Assembly: GCA_024280435.1 (NCBI GenBank)
Contig: JAJRQD010000018.1
Location: forward strand, 27,868-65,344
Source of the DNA: an archaeon
GTDB taxonomy: Archaea > Asgardarchaeota > Heimdallarchaeia > Heimdallarchaeales > Kariarchaeaceae
Direction: 5' to 3'
DNA length: 37,477 bases
Under the pieces are notes generated by a model. That model made no database searches. It was given only the letters and a program-made list of their open reading frames with translations, and was not told where the DNA came from. The translations under genes were made by a program, and so were the position numbers. Of the stretch, positions 7,387 through 37,477 are shown piece by piece (position 1 is the first letter of the stretch; each line of letters starts with the position of its first letter).

Positions 7387-9161
7387 TATAATATACCTCC
7401 TGATTGAACAAAATAAAGATATGAAGTTATTCCGGTCGCAGAAAGAACAAAAAGAAAAATGTTCCAAAAATGATCTCCACTTTGCATTCTAATAGAAACA
7501 ATACTAGATTTATAAGTGATATAAGCTATTAAATTAGTAATTATGGCATCTATGTAAAATCCATTTTGAATTATATCTATTATCATTGAAGGGATAATTG
7601 GTTTAATTTTATTGGTATTCCATCCAATAGCAATACCAATTATTATCAGTCCAATTATTAAAAGAAATGGTAATATTGAAAAATGATAAAATTCATCCAG
7701 TGAATTATATCCAAAGTTAGTAAATAGATATTTCAGATAATAGTAGATCAAAGATGAGAATATAGTACCTGTAGATAAAATTATCAGTACAAATATATTA
7801 GATTTTGAAATCTTAATGAAAGTTGACTTATCATTAGGAAATAGAAAATATTTTAGCATTCTAACTGAGTATGCAGCTGTAAAAACTACACCTACATACA
7901 GCATTACTGCTGCAATGAAATTACCATCTTTGATCAAATATTCAATTATCACATCTTTACTAAAAAAACCACTGAACGGTGGAATTCCAATTAAAGAGGC
8001 TAAACCAATTAATAATGAAAAATATATTATCTTGTTTTCTTTTATATCAAATGTAATATTTCGTATGTCCCTATTATGGTGTGAATATAATATTGACCCA
8101 ATTGTTAAAAATAATAAACCCTTAAATAAAGCATGATTTATCAAATGCCATAAAGATATAAAGGAACCATAATTTTTAATACCAATTGCTACCATCATAT
8201 AACCTAATTGACTAATAGTTGAATAAGCAAGTATTCTCTTCATGTCATAAGTTCCTAATGCAGAAATTGATGCATATAATGCAGTGAATGAACCAATTAT
8301 AATTATCAAATTATTGATATTTGTTGAATGTGGCGTCATTAAAAATCTAGAAGCCAAATATATTCCTGCATTAACCATTGTTGCTGCATGGATCAAAGCA
8401 CTAACTGTTGTTGGTCCTTGCATTGCATCAATATTCCGTTTATCAGAACTAGAAATCCAAATATGAAGAGGAAATTGAGCTGATTTCCCCGCAGCTGCTA
8501 AAATAAATCCATAAATAATATTATTAGGTAAATAATCTGAAATTAATAAATCTGAAATTGTCAATGGATAATTATTTGATATTAATAGGAATATCCCAAA
8601 AATAAAACCCAAGTCTGCAAAACCTGTAACTATTAAAGCTTTTATACCAGATTTAATTACAAATTCGCCTACTTTTTCTTTAAAATAATAAAAACTAATT
8701 AATCCCCATTAACAAATGCCAACTATCTCCCATCCAAAAAATAAAAGTATTAAGTTATCAGATAACAGTAGTAAAAGCATTCCAAATAAGAATAAATTAA
8801 CAAGTCCATAATACAAAGGAGCGTGTTTAGTTCTACCTATATACGTCCAAGAGAAAAATATTATAATTAAAGTTAACCAGCTTGATAATAGAGATATTAT
8901 CAAAGACCAAGGATCAACAAAATAAGTTATTTCAATACTTGTATTTGCAATTATAAACCAATCTCCAAAATTAGATTTAATTTTTATCATTTTTAGTAAT
9001 GTTGTAGCATTTATACTTAATATAATTGCAGTAGTCAAAGATGATGCAAATGCAACACCCCAAGACAAATATGTCTTTAATGATTTATCATTCAAAAGAG
9101 TGAAACTAAAAATAATTAACACACTTGAAAGTAAAAATATTAGTAAGATATCTAAAATCAT
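7386..9161 (-). pseudogene. NuoL-like antiporter subunit interrupted by in-frame TAA
   Basis: A NuoL-type subunit of 591 codons if read through. The first part contains the family signature VDPWSLIISLLSSW and ends LLFFGWEIVGIC; TAA at 8709-8711 interrupts it. The same frame continues without shift as WGLISFYYFKEKVGEF, then on through a complete NuoL core (HALFKGLLFL, ILAYSTISQLGYM) and the C-terminal NGFYIDAII region. In NuoL proteins the Cys after GWExVG is normally followed by Ser, and TCA to TAA is a single change. Everything else, including length and the TAATG coupling to the next gene, looks intact. I label it interrupted, not dead: sequencing error, recent mutation and readthrough all remain possible. 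Without it the enzyme would lack its terminal pump module and lateral helix. Confidence 0.85.
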
Positions 9162-9165
9162 AATA

Positions 9166-9471
9166 TTATCTCCTTAAACTATTTATTTTCCTGATATCTA
9201 TTGTTCCATGTTCTCTACCAACTTTAATTGCTAATGATAGGAGGAACGCAGATAATCCTGCACCAATAATAATTGATGTGATGACAACTGCATGGCCCAA
9301 TGGATCTTGTCCATTGATAGTAGCAGAATATAATAATAATAAATTAACTGATGTAAGCATCATTTCTAAGATTAATATAATTTTCACAATATTATTTGCA
9401 ATCATTATATTATAAAGTCCTAAAATTATGATTATTAGAACAGCAATATGGTAAACTTCAATCCCTAACAT
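9166..9471 (-). CDS. NuoK/MrpC-like small membrane subunit
   Basis: 101 residues with three hydrophobic segments. ILEMMLTSVNLLL carries the Glu in the second segment common to NuoK and MrpC. The third segment is preceded by DPLGHAVVITSIIIGAG, which resembles MrpC/MnhC and Mbh-type subunits (DPLxQALVLTAIVI) more than classical NuoK, which usually has a second Glu in an Ala-rich stretch. So this complex-I-like operon contains a K subunit of antiporter/hydrogenase type. It lies between the small membrane subunit gene and nuoL, 4 bases before nuoL. The ATG at 9471 is the only sensible start. Confidence 0.85.
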   Translation of the reverse strand: MLGIEVYHIAVLIIIILGLYNIMIANNIVKIILILEMMLTSVNLLLLYSATINGQDPLGHAVVITSIIIGAGLSAFLLSLAIKVGREHGTIDIRKINSLRR

Positions 9472-10027: not shown

Positions 10028-10395
10028 TATTTCACCTTCAATTTTTCCCTATTATCAGATGGTACAACAATATTATTTGTTAAATTCAATGCATCAGTGG
10101 GACAAACATCCTCACATGCCCCACAGAATATACAACCATCAAGATTTATTACGGGTGTAAACTTTTTTTTCATATTTTTATGTAAGTGTCTCATATTTTC
10201 AGTTATTTCAATCATTTCAATAACAAAACTTGGACAGACTCTGTAACATCTTTTACATCCAGTACAAATATCATTATCCAAATAATGTCTTCCTCTAAGC
10301 CTTTCAGGCTTATTTAATCCTTTTGAAGTTATTGGGAAATCTACTGTCACAGGCTTAGTAAAAAAATTTTTTATTAATTCAATAAATATTTTCAT
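10027..10395 (-). CDS. NuoI-like 2x[4Fe-4S] ferredoxin subunit
   Basis: Electron-transfer subunit with two [4Fe-4S] motifs: Cys44, 47, 50 and 54 (CTGCKRCYRVC) and Cys88, 91, 94 and 98 (CIFCGACEDVC). It should carry electrons between the redox partner, plausibly ferredoxin, and the small-subunit cluster. The frame is open to 10464, but I choose the ATG at 10395 (122 residues), which has GGAGTG 7-8 bases upstream and begins 11 bases after the nuoH stop. No NuoE, F or G genes are present, so NADH is unlikely as donor. Confidence 0.9.
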   Translation of the reverse strand: MKIFIELIKNFFTKPVTVDFPITSKGLNKPERLRGRHYLDNDICTGCKRCYRVCPSFVIEMIEITENMRHLHKNMKKKFTPVINLDGCIFCGACEDVCPTDALNLTNNIVVPSDNREKLKVK

Positions 10396-31155: not shown

Positions 31156-31266
31156 GTCGAGGTAGCTCAGTCGGTTAGAGCGTTAGACTCATAGTCTAAA
31201 TAATTTGGCTAGATCTAATTTCGATGAGCAATCTAAAGGTCGGGGGTTCGATTCCCCCCCTCGACA
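31156..31266 (+). tRNA. tRNA(CAU), elongator Met or Ile2, with archaeal intron
   Basis: Acceptor GTCGAGG (31156-31162) pairs with CCTCGAC (31259-31265), discriminator A31266; CCA is not encoded. D stem GCTC/GAGC; T arm GGGGG-TTCGATT-CCCCC. Anticodon stem TTAGA (31183-31187) pairs with TCTAA (31232-31236). Anticodon CAT is 31190-31192. A 37-base intron, 31194-31230, lies at 37/38. It forms a bulge-helix-bulge: CTCA pairs with TGAG, bulges TA/G and CA/A hold the cut sites. G1-C72 and the anticodon stem do not fit an archaeal initiator. Between elongator Met and Ile2 (agmatidine-modified C34) I cannot decide. The gene starts on the base after the L10e stop, so it is probably released from that mRNA. 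Confidence 0.93.
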
Positions 31267-31310
31267 TCTTCTAAGGGTATATTATCTAGAAAGACTAAAA
31301 TTTTAGAAGA
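31267..31310. repeat. 8-base inverted repeat directly after the tRNA
   Basis: TCTTCTAA (31267-31274) begins on the base after the tRNA discriminator, and its reverse complement TTAGAAGA is at 31303-31310. In RNA this would be a stem with a 28-base loop. It could guide 3' processing, act in termination, or be an arm of an integration site. No function is shown by the sequence itself. Confidence 0.35.
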
Positions 31311-31337
31311 ACAGACCATTATAATATTAAAATTTAA

Positions 31338-31360
31338 TACCTCTATTTTTTTTGGAGGTA
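31338..31360 (+). promoter_or_regulatory. Hairpin enclosing the ribosome-binding site of the multi-HTH gene
   Basis: TACCTC (31338-31343) is the reverse complement of GAGGTA (31355-31360), with a T-rich 11-base loop. The right arm is part of the GGAGGT ribosome-binding site (31354-31359), which is 9 bases before the GTG at 31369. Folding would hide the site, giving a possible switch for translation of the next gene. Confidence 0.42.
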
Positions 31361-31368
31361 GAAATTAA

Positions 31369-33441
31369 GTGGGACAAATTTTACATGAAAATGTCCCATC
31401 TAGCAGTAATAATGCTGGAACTAAATCACAACAAAAACTATGTCAATTTTTCTTAAATATCAAAAATAATAAGGGATTAACTAAATATGAGCTATCAAAG
31501 GAATTTGATCTCTCTGAAGCTGCAATTAAGAAAAGATTATTTCTTCACCGTAAAAAATTACCCTGTATAAGTCTTGAATCTGGAAGTAATTTATACCGAC
31601 ATGATAAAAATAAATGTAGATTAGTGGGACAAAAACAAAGGGAGTTAGTAAAACAAAATGTCCCACCTAAAGTTGCAACTTCTCCTGGAAGAAAAGATCA
31701 GCTGATATCTTCTAATAATTATGTTGTTGCATGGCTTTCAAATAAGTTTCATGTATCTGAGAGCATAATTGATGATTTACTTGAGTTTACCTGGAGAGAT
31801 CAGATCATTGAGATCCATGGTGCAATGTATGAGACACAGACAGATTATCGACCTGATCAAAAAGAAGAGTATGAATTACCTCAATTAGTATGTAATAAAT
31901 ATTCCAAAGTTTATGTGCAGATCTATCCCAGTGGTAAACTCACAGTACACATGGGTCCAGCTGTAATAAATAATAAAAGAGCAAAATATGGGTTCTCTCC
32001 CTTTGGAGTACCTTTATCTAAATTTGAAAATGAAGCTGAGAAATTTATTGAAAGTAAAATAAAAGTAAAGGTAATACTGAGGAATAGAATAATACAGTGT
32101 GATCTGGCTGTTGATAATCACAGGGTCCATTCCTGTTTAAATCGCCCTGCAATTCCAATAATAGTTGATGGTGTGGAGGTGATGAGAGGCCAGGAATATA
32201 TGGTTGAGAGGGGAGAGGATCATCCACATTACAATGAACCAGATTTTATCAAAGGTGAGGAAATAAGGAGACAGGAGATTAGATTTCTCAATAGGCAATC
32301 AATGGAATTGATCCCTTTTGTCCATGATTTGATGAAACGACAATTGGAGGATGTTAAATCAGGTATCGCAATAAAAAGGATGTCTGATCATTTATTAGAT
32401 ATAAATGAACGCCTGGAATACTCTCTGGAAGAACAAAGACAGTTCTCGATTAATCAGGTGTACTCAAATAATTTAATGCAGCAACAACTTATGAGGATCC
32501 ATGAAGATCATGGAATAATAAAATCCCAAAATACAGAGAATTATTTCATGAATTTGAAAATTAGACAGGATATCGATGTTAGATCAACTTCACAAGATAG
32601 CAAATTGAATCGAACAGCATCAGATCTGGCACAAATCTCAGAACAGATAGAAAAATCAAATTCAGATCTGAATAGTAATTTCTCTGTTTTAATTTCACAG
32701 AATGATGTTAGAAATGATTTATTGAGAGATAATAATGAATTGCAAATTATTAATGGGACAAAACTTGATGGTATAAACAAGTTGCTGAAAGAAATAAAAA
32801 ATCAGCAACTTCATCAAAATACCGATAGTGAAGCAGTGAAATGGCGAAAAATAGATAGTGGGACAAAATTATTTATGGTGGCAACTTTGTATAAATTATA
32901 TGGATCCTTCACTAAAGTTGCTGAAGAAATTCAGAAGGAATTCAAGGTTACAAGACAGGCCCTTGACAAACTGGTTAGGTCCAGGACAAAAAATTGGGAA
33001 GGGGACATTCTTGATAAAATGGATAAATTACTGTCTTCTATCAGTATAAATAAAGTTGTCACAGGTGGGACAATTTCAAAAGACAAAAGTGACAGTAGCA
33101 ACTTTGCATATACTAATAAATCTTCAAGTACAGGAGATAATGACAAAGAATTACCTGAAATCAAAGGTGGGACATTTAGTGGGACAAAAATTTTCTTTGG
33201 CAACTTCAGTTATACCGATGATTTGAGAATTCAAAAAAGAATCAAAACAATATTGCAGATCTCAGCTGACAATCCAAGTTTGAGTAAATCACAATTGAGT
33301 AAATTATCAGGAGGTAGTAAAGATCGAACCCTGATACTTATACAATATTTGATTGATAATGGATATCTGATTTCCACTAGTCCTAATCCAGCTAGACCCA
33401 AATGGACCAAAATTACAAGGAGTGATAAAAAATATGAGTGA
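31369..33441 (+). CDS. Unrecognised 690-residue multi-HTH coiled-coil protein
   Basis: I do not recognise this family. The N terminus has a helix-turn-helix (GLTKYELSKEFDLSEAAIKK), then a second helical unit (NNYVVAWLSNKFHVSES) and a beta-rich middle (SKVYVQIYPSGKLTVHMGP). About 310-480 is Gln/Asn/Lys-rich and coiled-coil-like. Two more HTH units follow: LYGSFTKVAEEIQKEFKV and, at the C terminus, a winged helix (PSLSKSQLSKLSGGSKDRT). GTG start, with GGAGGT 9 bases upstream. The stop overlaps the RadA-like start by 8 bases. The coding DNA carries repeated motifs (separate entry) and more GATC than its neighbours. Guess, not shown: initiator or DNA-organising protein of a mobile element or replicon. 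Confidence 0.8.
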   Translation: MGQILHENVPSSSNNAGTKSQQKLCQFFLNIKNNKGLTKYELSKEFDLSEAAIKKRLFLHRKKLPCISLESGSNLYRHDKNKCRLVGQKQRELVKQNVPPKVATSPGRKDQLISSNNYVVAWLSNKFHVSESIIDDLLEFTWRDQIIEIHGAMYETQTDYRPDQKEEYELPQLVCNKYSKVYVQIYPSGKLTVHMGPAVINNKRAKYGFSPFGVPLSKFENEAEKFIESKIKVKVILRNRIIQCDLAVDNHRVHSCLNRPAIPIIVDGVEVMRGQEYMVERGEDHPHYNEPDFIKGEEIRRQEIRFLNRQSMELIPFVHDLMKRQLEDVKSGIAIKRMSDHLLDINERLEYSLEEQRQFSINQVYSNNLMQQQLMRIHEDHGIIKSQNTENYFMNLKIRQDIDVRSTSQDSKLNRTASDLAQISEQIEKSNSDLNSNFSVLISQNDVRNDLLRDNNELQIINGTKLDGINKLLKEIKNQQLHQNTDSEAVKWRKIDSGTKLFMVATLYKLYGSFTKVAEEIQKEFKVTRQALDKLVRSRTKNWEGDILDKMDKLLSSISINKVVTGGTISKDKSDSSNFAYTNKSSSTGDNDKELPEIKGGTFSGTKIFFGNFSYTDDLRIQKRIKTILQISADNPSLSKSQLSKLSGGSKDRTLILIQYLIDNGYLISTSPNPARPKWTKITRSDKKYE
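31370..33206. repeat. Iterated TGGGACA and GCAACTT motifs inside one gene
   Basis: TGGGACA starts at 31370, 31625, 32754, 32859, 33066, 33168 and 33180; its reverse complement TGTCCCA starts at 31392 and 31659. GCAACTT or AAGTTGC lies at 31670-31681 (as palindrome AAGTTGCAACTT), 32779, 32805, 32881, 32915, 33098 and 33200. The pair 32779-32788 and 32802-32811 forms a perfect 10-base inverted repeat. The first motif is read as VGQ, xGT or NVP, and the second as VAT, QL or NF, so no single protein repeat explains them. Flanks favour (A/G)GTGGGACAaaatt. The first copy sits at the start codon. Binding-site function is inferred. Confidence 0.75.
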
Positions 33442-34303
33442 AACACAGCAATCTCAGATTGATGAGATACATGAATTAGAATTACAATATGGAGTTAAAG
33501 ATAAAATTCCAGAAGGGATTAATTTATTCCAGGGATTTTCAAGTGGACTAAATGTCTTCAAGAATAAAACTCTAAACTCAGCAATATCATTTAATGTTGA
33601 GGAGTTAGATAAATTATTCATGTCTCCAGAATTACCATTTGTAGGAATCCCACTTGGGAGAACAGTTGAATTATTTGGTGGATTTGGAAGTGGTAAAACA
33701 CAGTTATGTCATCAATTATGTGTGAATGTGCAATTACCTGTCTCTGAAGGTGGAGTTGAGAAAATGGCTATGTATATTGATACTGAAGGTACTTTTTCAC
33801 CCACCAGGATAATTCAGATGTCCAAAAGTAAAAATAAGGACCCGACTTATATTTTAAAAAATATCTCAGTTGCAAGGGTGAAATCTTCTGATGACCAGTT
33901 GAAAATACTGGATAAAATAGAATCTATCCTCAGAGATAATAATGATAAATTCGGTCTTATTATTATTGATAGTATTATTGCAAATTTAAACGCTGAATAC
34001 ATTGGTAGAGCAGTCTTGTCAGAGAAACAACAGATTTTAAGTAATTTTCTATGGAGATTGAAGAATATAGCTGAGGATTATAATTTACTTGTTATAATTA
34101 CAAATCAGATTCGGACCAACCCCAATCAATATTATGGAGATGCAACACTTCATAGTGGGGGAAATGTGGTTGCTCACTGGGCCTCATACAGATGTTATCT
34201 GAGAAGAAGCAAACAAAATAAAAGAGTGATACGAATGGTTAAATCAATTTATAATGATGATAACGAGGCAGTATTTGAGATTACTGAGGGAGGGATAATT
34301 TAA
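33434..34303 (+). CDS. RadA/RecA-family recombinase paralogue
   Basis: 289 residues from the ATG at 33434, which has GGAGTGAT upstream and overlaps the preceding stop. A GTG at 33422 is a weaker alternative. It is a RecA-fold ATPase: Walker A GGFGSGKTQ at 82-90, MYIDTEGTFSPTRI, Walker B FGLIIIDSI, and LLVIITNQIRTNP matching the RadA/Rad51 L2 region. It lacks the N-terminal HhH domain of full RadA, having instead about 50 residues of other sequence, so it is a paralogue of RadB or Rad51-paralogue style. Translational coupling to the multi-HTH gene suggests they act together on DNA, perhaps at the repeated motifs in that gene. Confidence 0.88.
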   Translation: MSETQQSQIDEIHELELQYGVKDKIPEGINLFQGFSSGLNVFKNKTLNSAISFNVEELDKLFMSPELPFVGIPLGRTVELFGGFGSGKTQLCHQLCVNVQLPVSEGGVEKMAMYIDTEGTFSPTRIIQMSKSKNKDPTYILKNISVARVKSSDDQLKILDKIESILRDNNDKFGLIIIDSIIANLNAEYIGRAVLSEKQQILSNFLWRLKNIAEDYNLLVIITNQIRTNPNQYYGDATLHSGGNVVAHWASYRCYLRRSKQNKRVIRMVKSIYNDDNEAVFEITEGGII

Positions 34304-34328: not shown

Positions 34329-34413
34329 GGATTGCAACTGTTTTACAAAATATCAATATACCATCTTTGAATATTAATATATTATGTCAAATAGAAATAA
34401 GGAGGCTCTTGAT

Positions 34414-34794
34414 ATGAGTTCAAAAGCGGTGAGTGTGAGATTAAAGCAAGAAGAAATTCAGCAATTAATTACACTATTCTCATCTGAACAAGACATATCA
34501 ACATATAAGTTAGTACAGTTTGCAATCAAGCATACATTAACATGCGATAATCCACTTTCCGGTATTTCCGATATTTCTTCGAACGGAAACAAAATTAGTA
34601 TAAAAAAGCATAGCAATATATTAAGTGTAAAAGAAGCAGCAGCAATGTTTGATGTGACAACTAAAACAATAAGAAATTGGATTCATGATAAAAAAATTGT
34701 AGCATTGCGACCAGGTCGAGAATTTTTAGTTTTAAGAGATTCACTTGAAAAACTACTCAAACCAACGGTTGTATATCAAGATACAATCCTTTAA
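34414..34794 (+). CDS. RHH plus MerR/excisionase-type HTH DNA-binding protein
   Basis: 126 residues from the ATG at 34414, chosen because GGAGG (34401-34405) lies 8 bases upstream; an ATG at 34384 would add ten residues but has no such site. The N terminus (KAVSVRLKQEEIQQLITLF...STYKLVQFAIKHTL) has the ribbon-helix-helix pattern. The C terminus has LSVKEAAAMFDVTTKTIRNWIHDKKI, a helix-turn-helix of the MerR/excisionase class, with the wing RPGREFLVLRDSLEKLL. Joining both DNA-binding folds in one small protein suggests a regulator or directionality factor of a mobile or partition module. It lies just downstream of direct repeats it may bind. Confidence 0.78.
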   Translation: MSSKAVSVRLKQEEIQQLITLFSSEQDISTYKLVQFAIKHTLTCDNPLSGISDISSNGNKISIKKHSNILSVKEAAAMFDVTTKTIRNWIHDKKIVALRPGREFLVLRDSLEKLLKPTVVYQDTIL

Positions 34795-35008: not shown

Positions 35009-37477
35009 ATGCAGTTAAGAAAACCTGTAAAGTATTTTGTAATTTTATTATTGATAGTATCAATTATTAGTCAAATTTATCTAATAAATGATTCTTTGCA
35101 ATCATCAGATGAAATAAACTCATCTGAAGATATTAATGAAAACTATGTTACTCCTGGACAAACAATTTATGATCCTAATGTTAGACCAGAAGATCTAAGA
35201 ACTCCATTTCCAATTCATGAAACTGAGGATACAAGAAGCAATAATATTGATTTTTTTAAGAATCAATTATCTTTGAATACTATTGATAATTACAAGGTTG
35301 CAGACAATTCAATTTACAGTAATTGGAAAACGGGGAAATCTGTTCATGTAGAAACTGAAATTCCCCGACAGTATCCTGATTATGATTCTATGTATGCGTA
35401 TGGTAAACATATAGATTTATCTTCTGCAGATATACCCAATGATTTCGGAAGTATTCAGTATGATAAAGAAGGGTATGACTATTATTTACAAGATTACGAT
35501 AATTTAGTAATAGGCGCAAAAGTAATAACAACAAGTGGTAATTATGCAGGTGATTTTTTTGGGTATTTAATTTTAGAAATACCCACTAATTCGCTTGGAG
35601 TGCTAACATATAATGTTTACACGTATGGAGAAACTGATTCAAATTCAAAAGAAACTTTAACAGATTCAGGAAATTATAATTATAGAGCAGAACATATTTT
35701 AAACGGGAAGATTAAATTGCAGTTAAGAGCCAGATATTCGGGGAATTGGGAAGGTAACCAAGAAAAATATTATGATTTGAAGATTTTTGATGGAGTTTCT
35801 AATTCATGGGATATAATAGATTCTAAATTGATTGACCCGTCTACATATTCAGGATTTGAAGAAGTTTGGATAGGATATGATAAATTATACATTACACCAA
35901 ATAAATTAGTAGGAGAATATCGTTCAGAATATCAATATTCTGATGATACAAGTATTATACATAGGGTTACATTACAGGGACTTGATGGTAATCGAATGAT
36001 AATCTATAAACCTACGATATGGGAATATGCAAGTATCACACCAGAACCTGCAGGAGTTACAGAAAGTTCAGGGAATATTATTTTAACAGGAATAGCAGAC
36101 GTAATATATCAAGTACTATTCTCACAAACAAACTATTATTTTATGGCTGCTGAAGATATCACTGATTTTGAAACATCATGTATGGACTTTGAATGCGGAA
36201 GTTATCGATTGGTTAATCGTGAAAATTCTGCGGGTAATAATGGGTTTGAAAGTTATCAAATAGTTTTAGATATTGTTTCACAAGGAAGTTATGCTTTAGA
36301 AGTTCAAGAAACAAATGGATGGGGACAAACATCATTTCCTGTTGATGATCTTGAACCAGGAGAATATTATTTTGCGTATGATGTTTATATTGCCGAAGGT
36401 GATGGATACTATACATGGAGAGGTTCTCCATCAAGATATTTATCTGATTTTGAATATAATAAATGGTACACATTTGTTGAATATATATCAATTAAAACTA
36501 CTATTAAATACACTACAATGCCAGAACCTACCTTTTTATCGTTAACTATTGATCCTTCTATTGCAACAACTATATATTTTGATAATTTTCATTTCTTTGT
36601 CGCTTCAGGCAACATCGTAACTAATTCTTATTCATCCTATGACATTTCTGCACAATACTTAGTTATTGATAATATAGAAAATCCAGCTTTGGCTGATAAA
36701 GAAGTACAGATGGCTCTTAGAGATAGAACAGCGGACACAGAAATAATTTCTAAATCAATAACAACTGATAGTAATGGAATTGCTTCATTTGTATACTCAG
36801 GTACATTGGAGCAGAAAGAATATGAAATTAGAACTAATATAACGTCTCAAACATATAATACAAGTAGTTATTTTACACCTTTACCGTCAGGTGATATGCC
36901 TTTCAGTTATGAGACTAAAGAAAATGGAGATCGAAATTATTGGGATTTTTCAGAAGGGTCATTTGATGGATGGGATGATTATGGATATGGTATGACTAGA
37001 TATGTGGAAAATGGTGTATTCTCTCTTGTTGTAACTGCTGGATACCCATACGCTACAATCAGAAATTATGATGATTATAACGGGTTGGATTTTGGTTCAT
37101 ATGACACAGTTGTTATAAGGGCGAGGGGGACTGTCACAAATGTGCTGAGGTTCAATACTCCTGCGGGTTATGTATATCCCGAAAGTGGAAACACATTTTT
37201 ATCAGAAACTGATTTTAATATATATTATTTTGATATCAGTTCGATTTCAGGTACAATTGCCTTATTAGTCACTACGAATACTGTTGATGGAACTTCACTT
37301 TCCGTTGGAGATTTTTTTGATGTTGATTATATCAGATTTATAAATACAACAACAACATCAGAGATTTATGAGACTGAAACAGATTTTATTCTCTCTAGTG
37401 TAAATGATACAAAATCATATTTTTACACTTTAGATTCATATTCTAGCTATACTAATGATCTTGAGTACATTCCAAAA
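35009..37477 (+). CDS. Large secreted or surface protein, 3' end beyond the window
   Basis: An ATG at 35009 opens 823 codons with no stop before the window ends. Residues about 5-24 (KPVKYFVILLLIVSIISQIY) form a signal peptide or membrane anchor, followed by a Ser/Asp/Glu-rich region. The rest is Tyr, Asn, Thr and Gly-rich and beta-rich, as in archaeal cell-surface proteins, with many Asn-X-Ser/Thr sites. Two segments look like beta-sandwich ligand-binding domains (around FESYQIVLDIVSQGSYALEV and around NYWDFSEGSFDGWDDYGYG). Between them is an Ig-like or invasin-like repeat (ADKEVQMALRDRT...ITTDSNGIASFVYSG). I do not recognise a specific family. Base composition and amino-acid use differ from the housekeeping genes. 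Adhesion or sugar binding is a guess. Confidence 0.8.
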   Translation, partial: MQLRKPVKYFVILLLIVSIISQIYLINDSLQSSDEINSSEDINENYVTPGQTIYDPNVRPEDLRTPFPIHETEDTRSNNIDFFKNQLSLNTIDNYKVADNSIYSNWKTGKSVHVETEIPRQYPDYDSMYAYGKHIDLSSADIPNDFGSIQYDKEGYDYYLQDYDNLVIGAKVITTSGNYAGDFFGYLILEIPTNSLGVLTYNVYTYGETDSNSKETLTDSGNYNYRAEHILNGKIKLQLRARYSGNWEGNQEKYYDLKIFDGVSNSWDIIDSKLIDPSTYSGFEEVWIGYDKLYITPNKLVGEYRSEYQYSDDTSIIHRVTLQGLDGNRMIIYKPTIWEYASITPEPAGVTESSGNIILTGIADVIYQVLFSQTNYYFMAAEDITDFETSCMDFECGSYRLVNRENSAGNNGFESYQIVLDIVSQGSYALEVQETNGWGQTSFPVDDLEPGEYYFAYDVYIAEGDGYYTWRGSPSRYLSDFEYNKWYTFVEYISIKTTIKYTTMPEPTFLSLTIDPSIATTIYFDNFHFFVASGNIVTNSYSSYDISAQYLVIDNIENPALADKEVQMALRDRTADTEIISKSITTDSNGIASFVYSGTLEQKEYEIRTNITSQTYNTSSYFTPLPSGDMPFSYETKENGDRNYWDFSEGSFDGWDDYGYGMTRYVENGVFSLVVTAGYPYATIRNYDDYNGLDFGSYDTVVIRARGTVTNVLRFNTPAGYVYPESGNTFLSETDFNIYYFDISSISGTIALLVTTNTVDGTSLSVGDFFDVDYIRFINTTTTSEIYETETDFILSSVNDTKSYFYTLDSYSSYTNDLEYIPK

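Follow-up and report, generated by a model that had tools for sequence, protein, structure and literature searches.

The tRNA-Met locus and its genes

The stretch of DNA analysed (the window, 37,477 nucleotides) belongs to contig C335 of a single metagenome-assembled genome of a Heimdall-group (Asgard) archaeon, 4.03 Mb in 342 contigs. Towards its right end lies an intron-containing tRNA-Met, missed by ARAGORN and detected by Rfam, which is the probable attachment target of a HeimV1-like provirus. The first gene after this tRNA starts 103 bases beyond it (31369-33441, 690 codons) and forms the left end of the provirus; it is followed in order by genes for a RadA-like ATPase, an HTH_17 protein and a giant surface protein. 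The features of the locus are:

31156..31266, plus strand: tRNA-Met (CAT anticodon), intron-containing, with a 38-base insertion in the anticodon arm (Rfam tRNA 66.4 bits, E 2.1e-14)
31215..31352, plus strand: exact match of 138 bp with the beginning of contig C126, with divergence after it
31369..33441, plus strand: multi-HTH/coiled-coil gene, 690 aa, GTG start within the first motif copy (ORF)
31370..31398, no strand: inverted pair TGGGACA/TGTCCCA over the start codon (word search)
31625..31665, no strand: second inverted pair TGGGACA/TGTCCCA (word search)
31670..31681, no strand: AAGTTGCAACTT, a 12-bp palindrome made of two overlapping copies of the second word (word search)
32754..32760, plus strand: TGGGACA
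32779..32811, no strand: inverted repeat AAGTTGCTGA ... TCAGCAACTT (second word)
32859..32887, plus strand: composite TGGGACA-N15-GCAACTT
32915..32921, plus strand: AAGTTGC
33066..33104, plus strand: composite TGGGACA-N25-GCAACTT
33168..33206, plus strand: TGGGACA (33168), TGGGACA (33180), then GCAACTT (33200)
33434..34303, plus strand: RadA-like ATPase, overlapping the end of the HTH gene (Pfam Rad51, E 1.7e-59)
34384..34794, plus strand: HTH_17 (excisionase/MerR-like) protein (Pfam E 2.5e-10; blastp E 2.9e-11 to the protein of C126 1862-2386)
35009..37477, plus strand: giant secreted surface protein, start only, truncated at the contig end; homologous to the 1991-aa protein of C126 and the 1824-aa protein of HeimV1

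Only one further exact match to the 3' end of the tRNA was found, at the beginning of contig C126 in the same assembly. A third copy that could serve as the right-hand attachment site was not found, and C335 stops within the surface gene.

The 690-aa protein showed a weak Pfam match to HTH_11 at residues 31-56, with no match in Pfam, PHROG or PDB beyond this weak HTH and no initiator domain. No homologue was found by sequence in first 97, later 228 genomes of the phylum, nor were relatives found in genome or viral collections, and its single-sequence structure models were poor (mean pLDDT 35). The RadA-like ATPase lacks the helix-hairpin-helix part that the host RadAs have at their N-terminus. 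Over residues 39-293 it shares about 51% identity with these full-length proteins, near which it lies in the RadA tree on a very long branch. The host genome itself encodes two full-length RadA genes (C157 and C8; loci L032 and L033), which are close relatives of each other. The RadA genes of relatives are host genes whose neighbourhoods hold no word array, and therefore RadA does not track the array. The coupling to a RadA paralogue to which the preliminary description had drawn attention is not general: C126 has no RadA gene between its HTH gene and its HTH_17 gene.

Repeated words within the HTH gene

The heptamer TGGGACA occurs nine times in the 690-codon gene when exact matches on both strands are counted (31370+, 31392-, 31625+, 31659-, 32754+, 32859+, 33066+, 33168+ and 33180+), each copy being where the preliminary description had placed it. 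A search of the whole window returned a sole copy outside the gene, at 10098, which is the one noticed earlier at about 10097. Counting the heptamer across the genome and shuffling codons had been proposed as checks, and both upheld the array. The genome holds 182 copies in 4.03 Mb, so that 0.09 are expected per 2.07 kb gene, in agreement with the earlier figure of about 0.1. Synonymous-codon permutation of the gene gave a mean of 0.66 copies and a maximum of 6 in 20,000 trials, none reaching the observed nine. When the best 7-mer of each shuffled gene was scored, which allows for post hoc choice of the word, the observed score was matched by none of 300 shuffles. In a survey covering 326 kb of the genome and 202 ORFs of 200 codons or more, TGGGACA in this gene was the most extreme 7-mer.

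The copies are translated in three ways as previously described, VGQ twice, NVP twice and xGT five times, and GGG is used at five of the nine motif glycine codons as against 2 of 23 elsewhere in the gene; sampled host genes use it for 5% of their glycines. The codon shuffles, the three reading frames, both orientations and the forced use of the rare GGG codon support selection acting on the nucleic acid (DNA or RNA) rather than on the protein, as had been suggested.

The wider consensus is mostly (A/G)GTGGGACA then A/T. A second word, AAGTTGC/GCAACTT, is also enriched in the gene (eight copies) and is interleaved with TGGGACA, occurring once as the palindrome listed above and twice as inverted pairs. 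The arrangement TGGGACA-N0-30-GCAACTT is found five times in the whole genome, four of them here. Within the sampled element, enrichment of the two words is confined to this gene, where the sites form two clusters near its 5' and 3' ends (protein residues 1-97 and 462-606). A third, weaker word, AGATCTG/CAGATCT, is present in six copies within 31801-33256 (Poisson p 8e-6).

The allelic contig C126 and HeimV1-like elements

The 11.3-kb contig C126 (locus L069, 1-11317) encodes a multi-HTH protein of 540 aa, an HTH_17 protein, a 1991-aa surface protein and an AbiV-like protein. Its HTH_17 protein is related to that of the window, as is its surface protein (47% identity over 636 aligned columns), while the 540-aa and 690-aa proteins show no significant similarity (blastp E 4.4). 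The 540-aa gene carries a heptamer of its own, ATGGGGT, in eight copies (0.1 expected), which lie in both orientations, in three frames and in 5' and 3' clusters, three of them within 60 bp of the gene start; none is present in the remainder of the contig. This gene ranks second in heptamer enrichment among the 202 ORFs and the window gene first. That the top two of the 202 should be the two allelic left-end genes, which differ in both protein and word, is the best single argument for assigning each word to its HTH gene. On the simplest reading, the sampled population contains C335 and C126 as alternative proviruses at one tRNA; C126 may instead be a second genomic copy. The AbiV-like HEPN gene of C126 lies at 8614-9312, and a fragment of a DUF4112 gene is also present.

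A profile of the surface proteins of the window and C126 detected homologues in eight other genomes of the phylum. It matched G015:C1:7207-8394 (E 2.9e-25), the giant surface protein of HeimV1, and this family ties the two elements to that virus. The genome of Ca. Heimdallarchaeum endolithica (G015) is closed and has been rotated so that it ends at tRNA-Gly(CCC), where the HeimV1 report places the integrated provirus (PMC8813620). The published primer for the first HeimV1 gene falls within an HTH gene (L110, 120-1694) whose 525-aa product has winged-helix signals at its N-terminal and C-terminal ends. Both elements are inserted next to a tRNA, have a multi-HTH/coiled-coil gene as the first after it and encode homologous giant surface proteins. 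They differ in the tRNA used (Gly CCC against Met CAT), and in HeimV1 no RadA or HTH_17 gene was seen to separate the HTH gene from the surface gene. The HTH gene of HeimV1 also differs in having no enriched 6- to 8-mer, and its product shows no clear sequence-level similarity to the 690-aa protein (hhalign probability 0.3; blastp E about 0.02 with composition correction off). Strong support for the earlier proposal that the array is borne by an element comes from the tRNA junction, the allelic contig and the synteny with HeimV1. A 2533-aa surface protein gene at another locus (L113, 622-8220) contains 11 copies of GGAGACC (1.2 expected).

Two further genomes contain comparable left ends. In G010, a tyrosine integrase gene is followed by a 546-codon multi-HTH frame and then by the surface protein gene; the integrase directly before the HTH gene is the order expected of a circle closed at its attachment site. 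No 6- to 8-mer is enriched in the HTH frame of G010. In Ca. Heimdallarchaeota archaeon PIR-30 metabat2 (G011), three of the element's eight exact copies of a 14-bp palindrome, GTAGCACGTGCTAC (locus L107: 1457, 4103, 6107, 12516, 15482, 16209, 16647 and 17574), lie in an HTH/coiled-coil gene that encodes 594 aa. The other five are dispersed over the same 19-kb locus in genic and intergenic DNA. The copies inside the main genes of this element all translate as VARAT. The palindrome is absent from the 128 other loci compared and appears in unrelated viral contigs as single copies only, apart from two in one contig. Homology among the five left-end HTH proteins could be demonstrated only weakly, and only between some pairs; what they share is their layout. 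The enrichment which the preliminary description expected in homologues thus gave a mixed result: of the four architectural counterparts, C126 and G011 each carry a distinct repeated site and HeimV1 and G010 carry none, so that a repeated site of its own is present in three of the five left-end genes and absent in two.

Candidate roles of the array

Word and HTH protein change in step, whereas the HTH_17 and surface proteins stay recognisably related. This makes the encoded protein a plausible, and the favoured, binder of the words. We propose, with a probability of about 0.43, that it is a self-targeting initiator with an intragenic origin. The 690-aa protein would bind TGGGACA, and AAGTTGC as a second word, in its own coding sequence, oligomerise through its coiled coil and open an origin within its own gene, in the manner of phage lambda O; by binding at the start codon it would control its own expression as well. 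Arrays bound by the product of the gene that contains them are known inside initiator or repressor genes of bacteriophages. An initiator with a putative origin at this place is favoured because the gene borders the attachment site, because the lambda O gene offers a precedent and because HeimV1, according to its report, shows V-shaped read coverage and bidirectional replication, which requires initiation at a defined origin (PMC8813620). If the coverage described there is highest at both ends, the origin would lie near the attachment site and so near the HTH gene. Against an origin stands the fact that neither G010 nor HeimV1, the one element with replication evidence, has an enriched word; the origin of HeimV1 may have longer or degenerate sites or lie elsewhere. 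The missing initiator domain, the poor structure models and the at best weak homology among the five HTH proteins also weigh against the initiator.

The lambda O gene carries four 19-bp iterons in its middle (PMC3985674). The window gene resembles it in that a gene for a predicted DNA-binding protein contains clustered repeats, here candidate sites, and differs in having two clusters of 7-bp words in both orientations, a product without similarity to a known initiator family and an origin that is putative. More tentatively, the HeimV1-like viruses of Asgard archaea may possess a new, fast-changing family of multi-HTH initiators with the origin in their own coding sequence, in which allelic proviruses at one tRNA swap initiator and word and so form replication or immunity groups.

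A literature search found no publication on such arrays in Heimdall-group proviruses. To our knowledge, what is new here is the setting in these proviruses, a protein family without a match to known initiators and the exchange of the word between allelic proviruses. The passages of the HeimV1 report considered here describe a defined origin and name no initiator for it (PMC8813620). For the archaeal group closest to eukaryotes, the present locus offers a concrete candidate protein together with candidate sites. The sequences suggest that such viruses place the sites bound by their replication or control protein within the gene for that protein. Two proviruses that compete for one tRNA differ in protein and word alike, which allows specificity to be tested directly by swapping gene or word, and a search for HTH genes with their own enriched word may uncover replicon or immunity modules in viruses without recognisable relatives.

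The main rival, close behind the initiator and in our view on the unlikely side, takes the sites for operators at which an autorepressor or superinfection-immunity protein silences its own gene, and in some elements the whole provirus, with allelic specificity groups like those of the L5 stoperators. The site pair over the start codon (31370-31398), the three sites within 60 bp of the start in C126 and the eight palindromes dispersed through genic and intergenic DNA in G011 agree with such a role, and the joint change of protein and word is the behaviour of immunity groups. Repressors of the L5 type have two DNA-binding domains and more than 20 dispersed sites, which are asymmetric, lie in promoters and short intergenic spaces genome-wide and follow transcription (PMC9283540). 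The likeness extends to short words peculiar to each phage or element, a multi-domain HTH protein and specificity groups (PMC9283540), binding being predicted in the present case. The words of the window and C126, in contrast, are restricted to one coding sequence, reaching in the window to the 3' end about 1.8 kb downstream of the start, and stand in mixed orientation; dispersal is seen only in G011, whose site is palindromic, and the protein has 690 aa against 183 for the L5 repressor. The G011 sites extend over 16 kb and fit silencing or partition better than an origin. One protein could also act as both initiator and autorepressor.

We consider it improbable that the sites are a centromere-like partition locus to which the HTH/coiled-coil protein binds on an episomal form. 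Short palindromes, clustered as well as dispersed, beside a coiled-coil HTH protein would fit a parS-type array, as would the eight dispersed copies of G011, but no ParA-type ATPase adjoins the gene in the window, C126 or G010, Pfam scans of the window and C126 genes revealed no ParB domain, and the RadA-like ATPase is missing from C126.

Still less probable is an action of the words in RNA, in which hairpins formed by the inverted pairs would control translation or decay of the mRNA. The TGGGACA/TGTCCCA and AAGTTGC/GCAACTT pairs do fold, and the stretch 32745-32830, a hairpin of AAGTTGCTGA and TCAGCAACTT inside the coding sequence, reaches a z of -3.96; the remaining folds are nevertheless weak (z -0.4 to -2.1), the five 3' copies of TGGGACA all have one orientation with no complement nearby, and there are no homologues in which covariation could be sought.

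In some phages, pac sites lie inside small-terminase genes. By this precedent the array might be a packaging site within a DNA-binding packaging gene, for which we see little chance: the neighbouring HTH_17 protein has weak PHROG matches to small terminases but matches excisionase families with higher scores, the 690-aa protein does not resemble a terminase and no recognisable large terminase subunit adjoins it. Chance or protein-level repetition is hardly credible, since the GGT...NFxYT segments near residues 566 and 600, which resemble a diverged 34-codon repeat, may account for one or two copies of TGGGACA but not for the rest, given 0 of 20,000 codon permutations, three readings on both strands and the excess of GGG.

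We also considered TGGGACA as a host regulatory motif and rejected it, the word being sparse genome-wide (182 copies against 404 for the reversed control). The other close pairs of TGGGACA in the genome lie within or beside unrelated ordinary genes.
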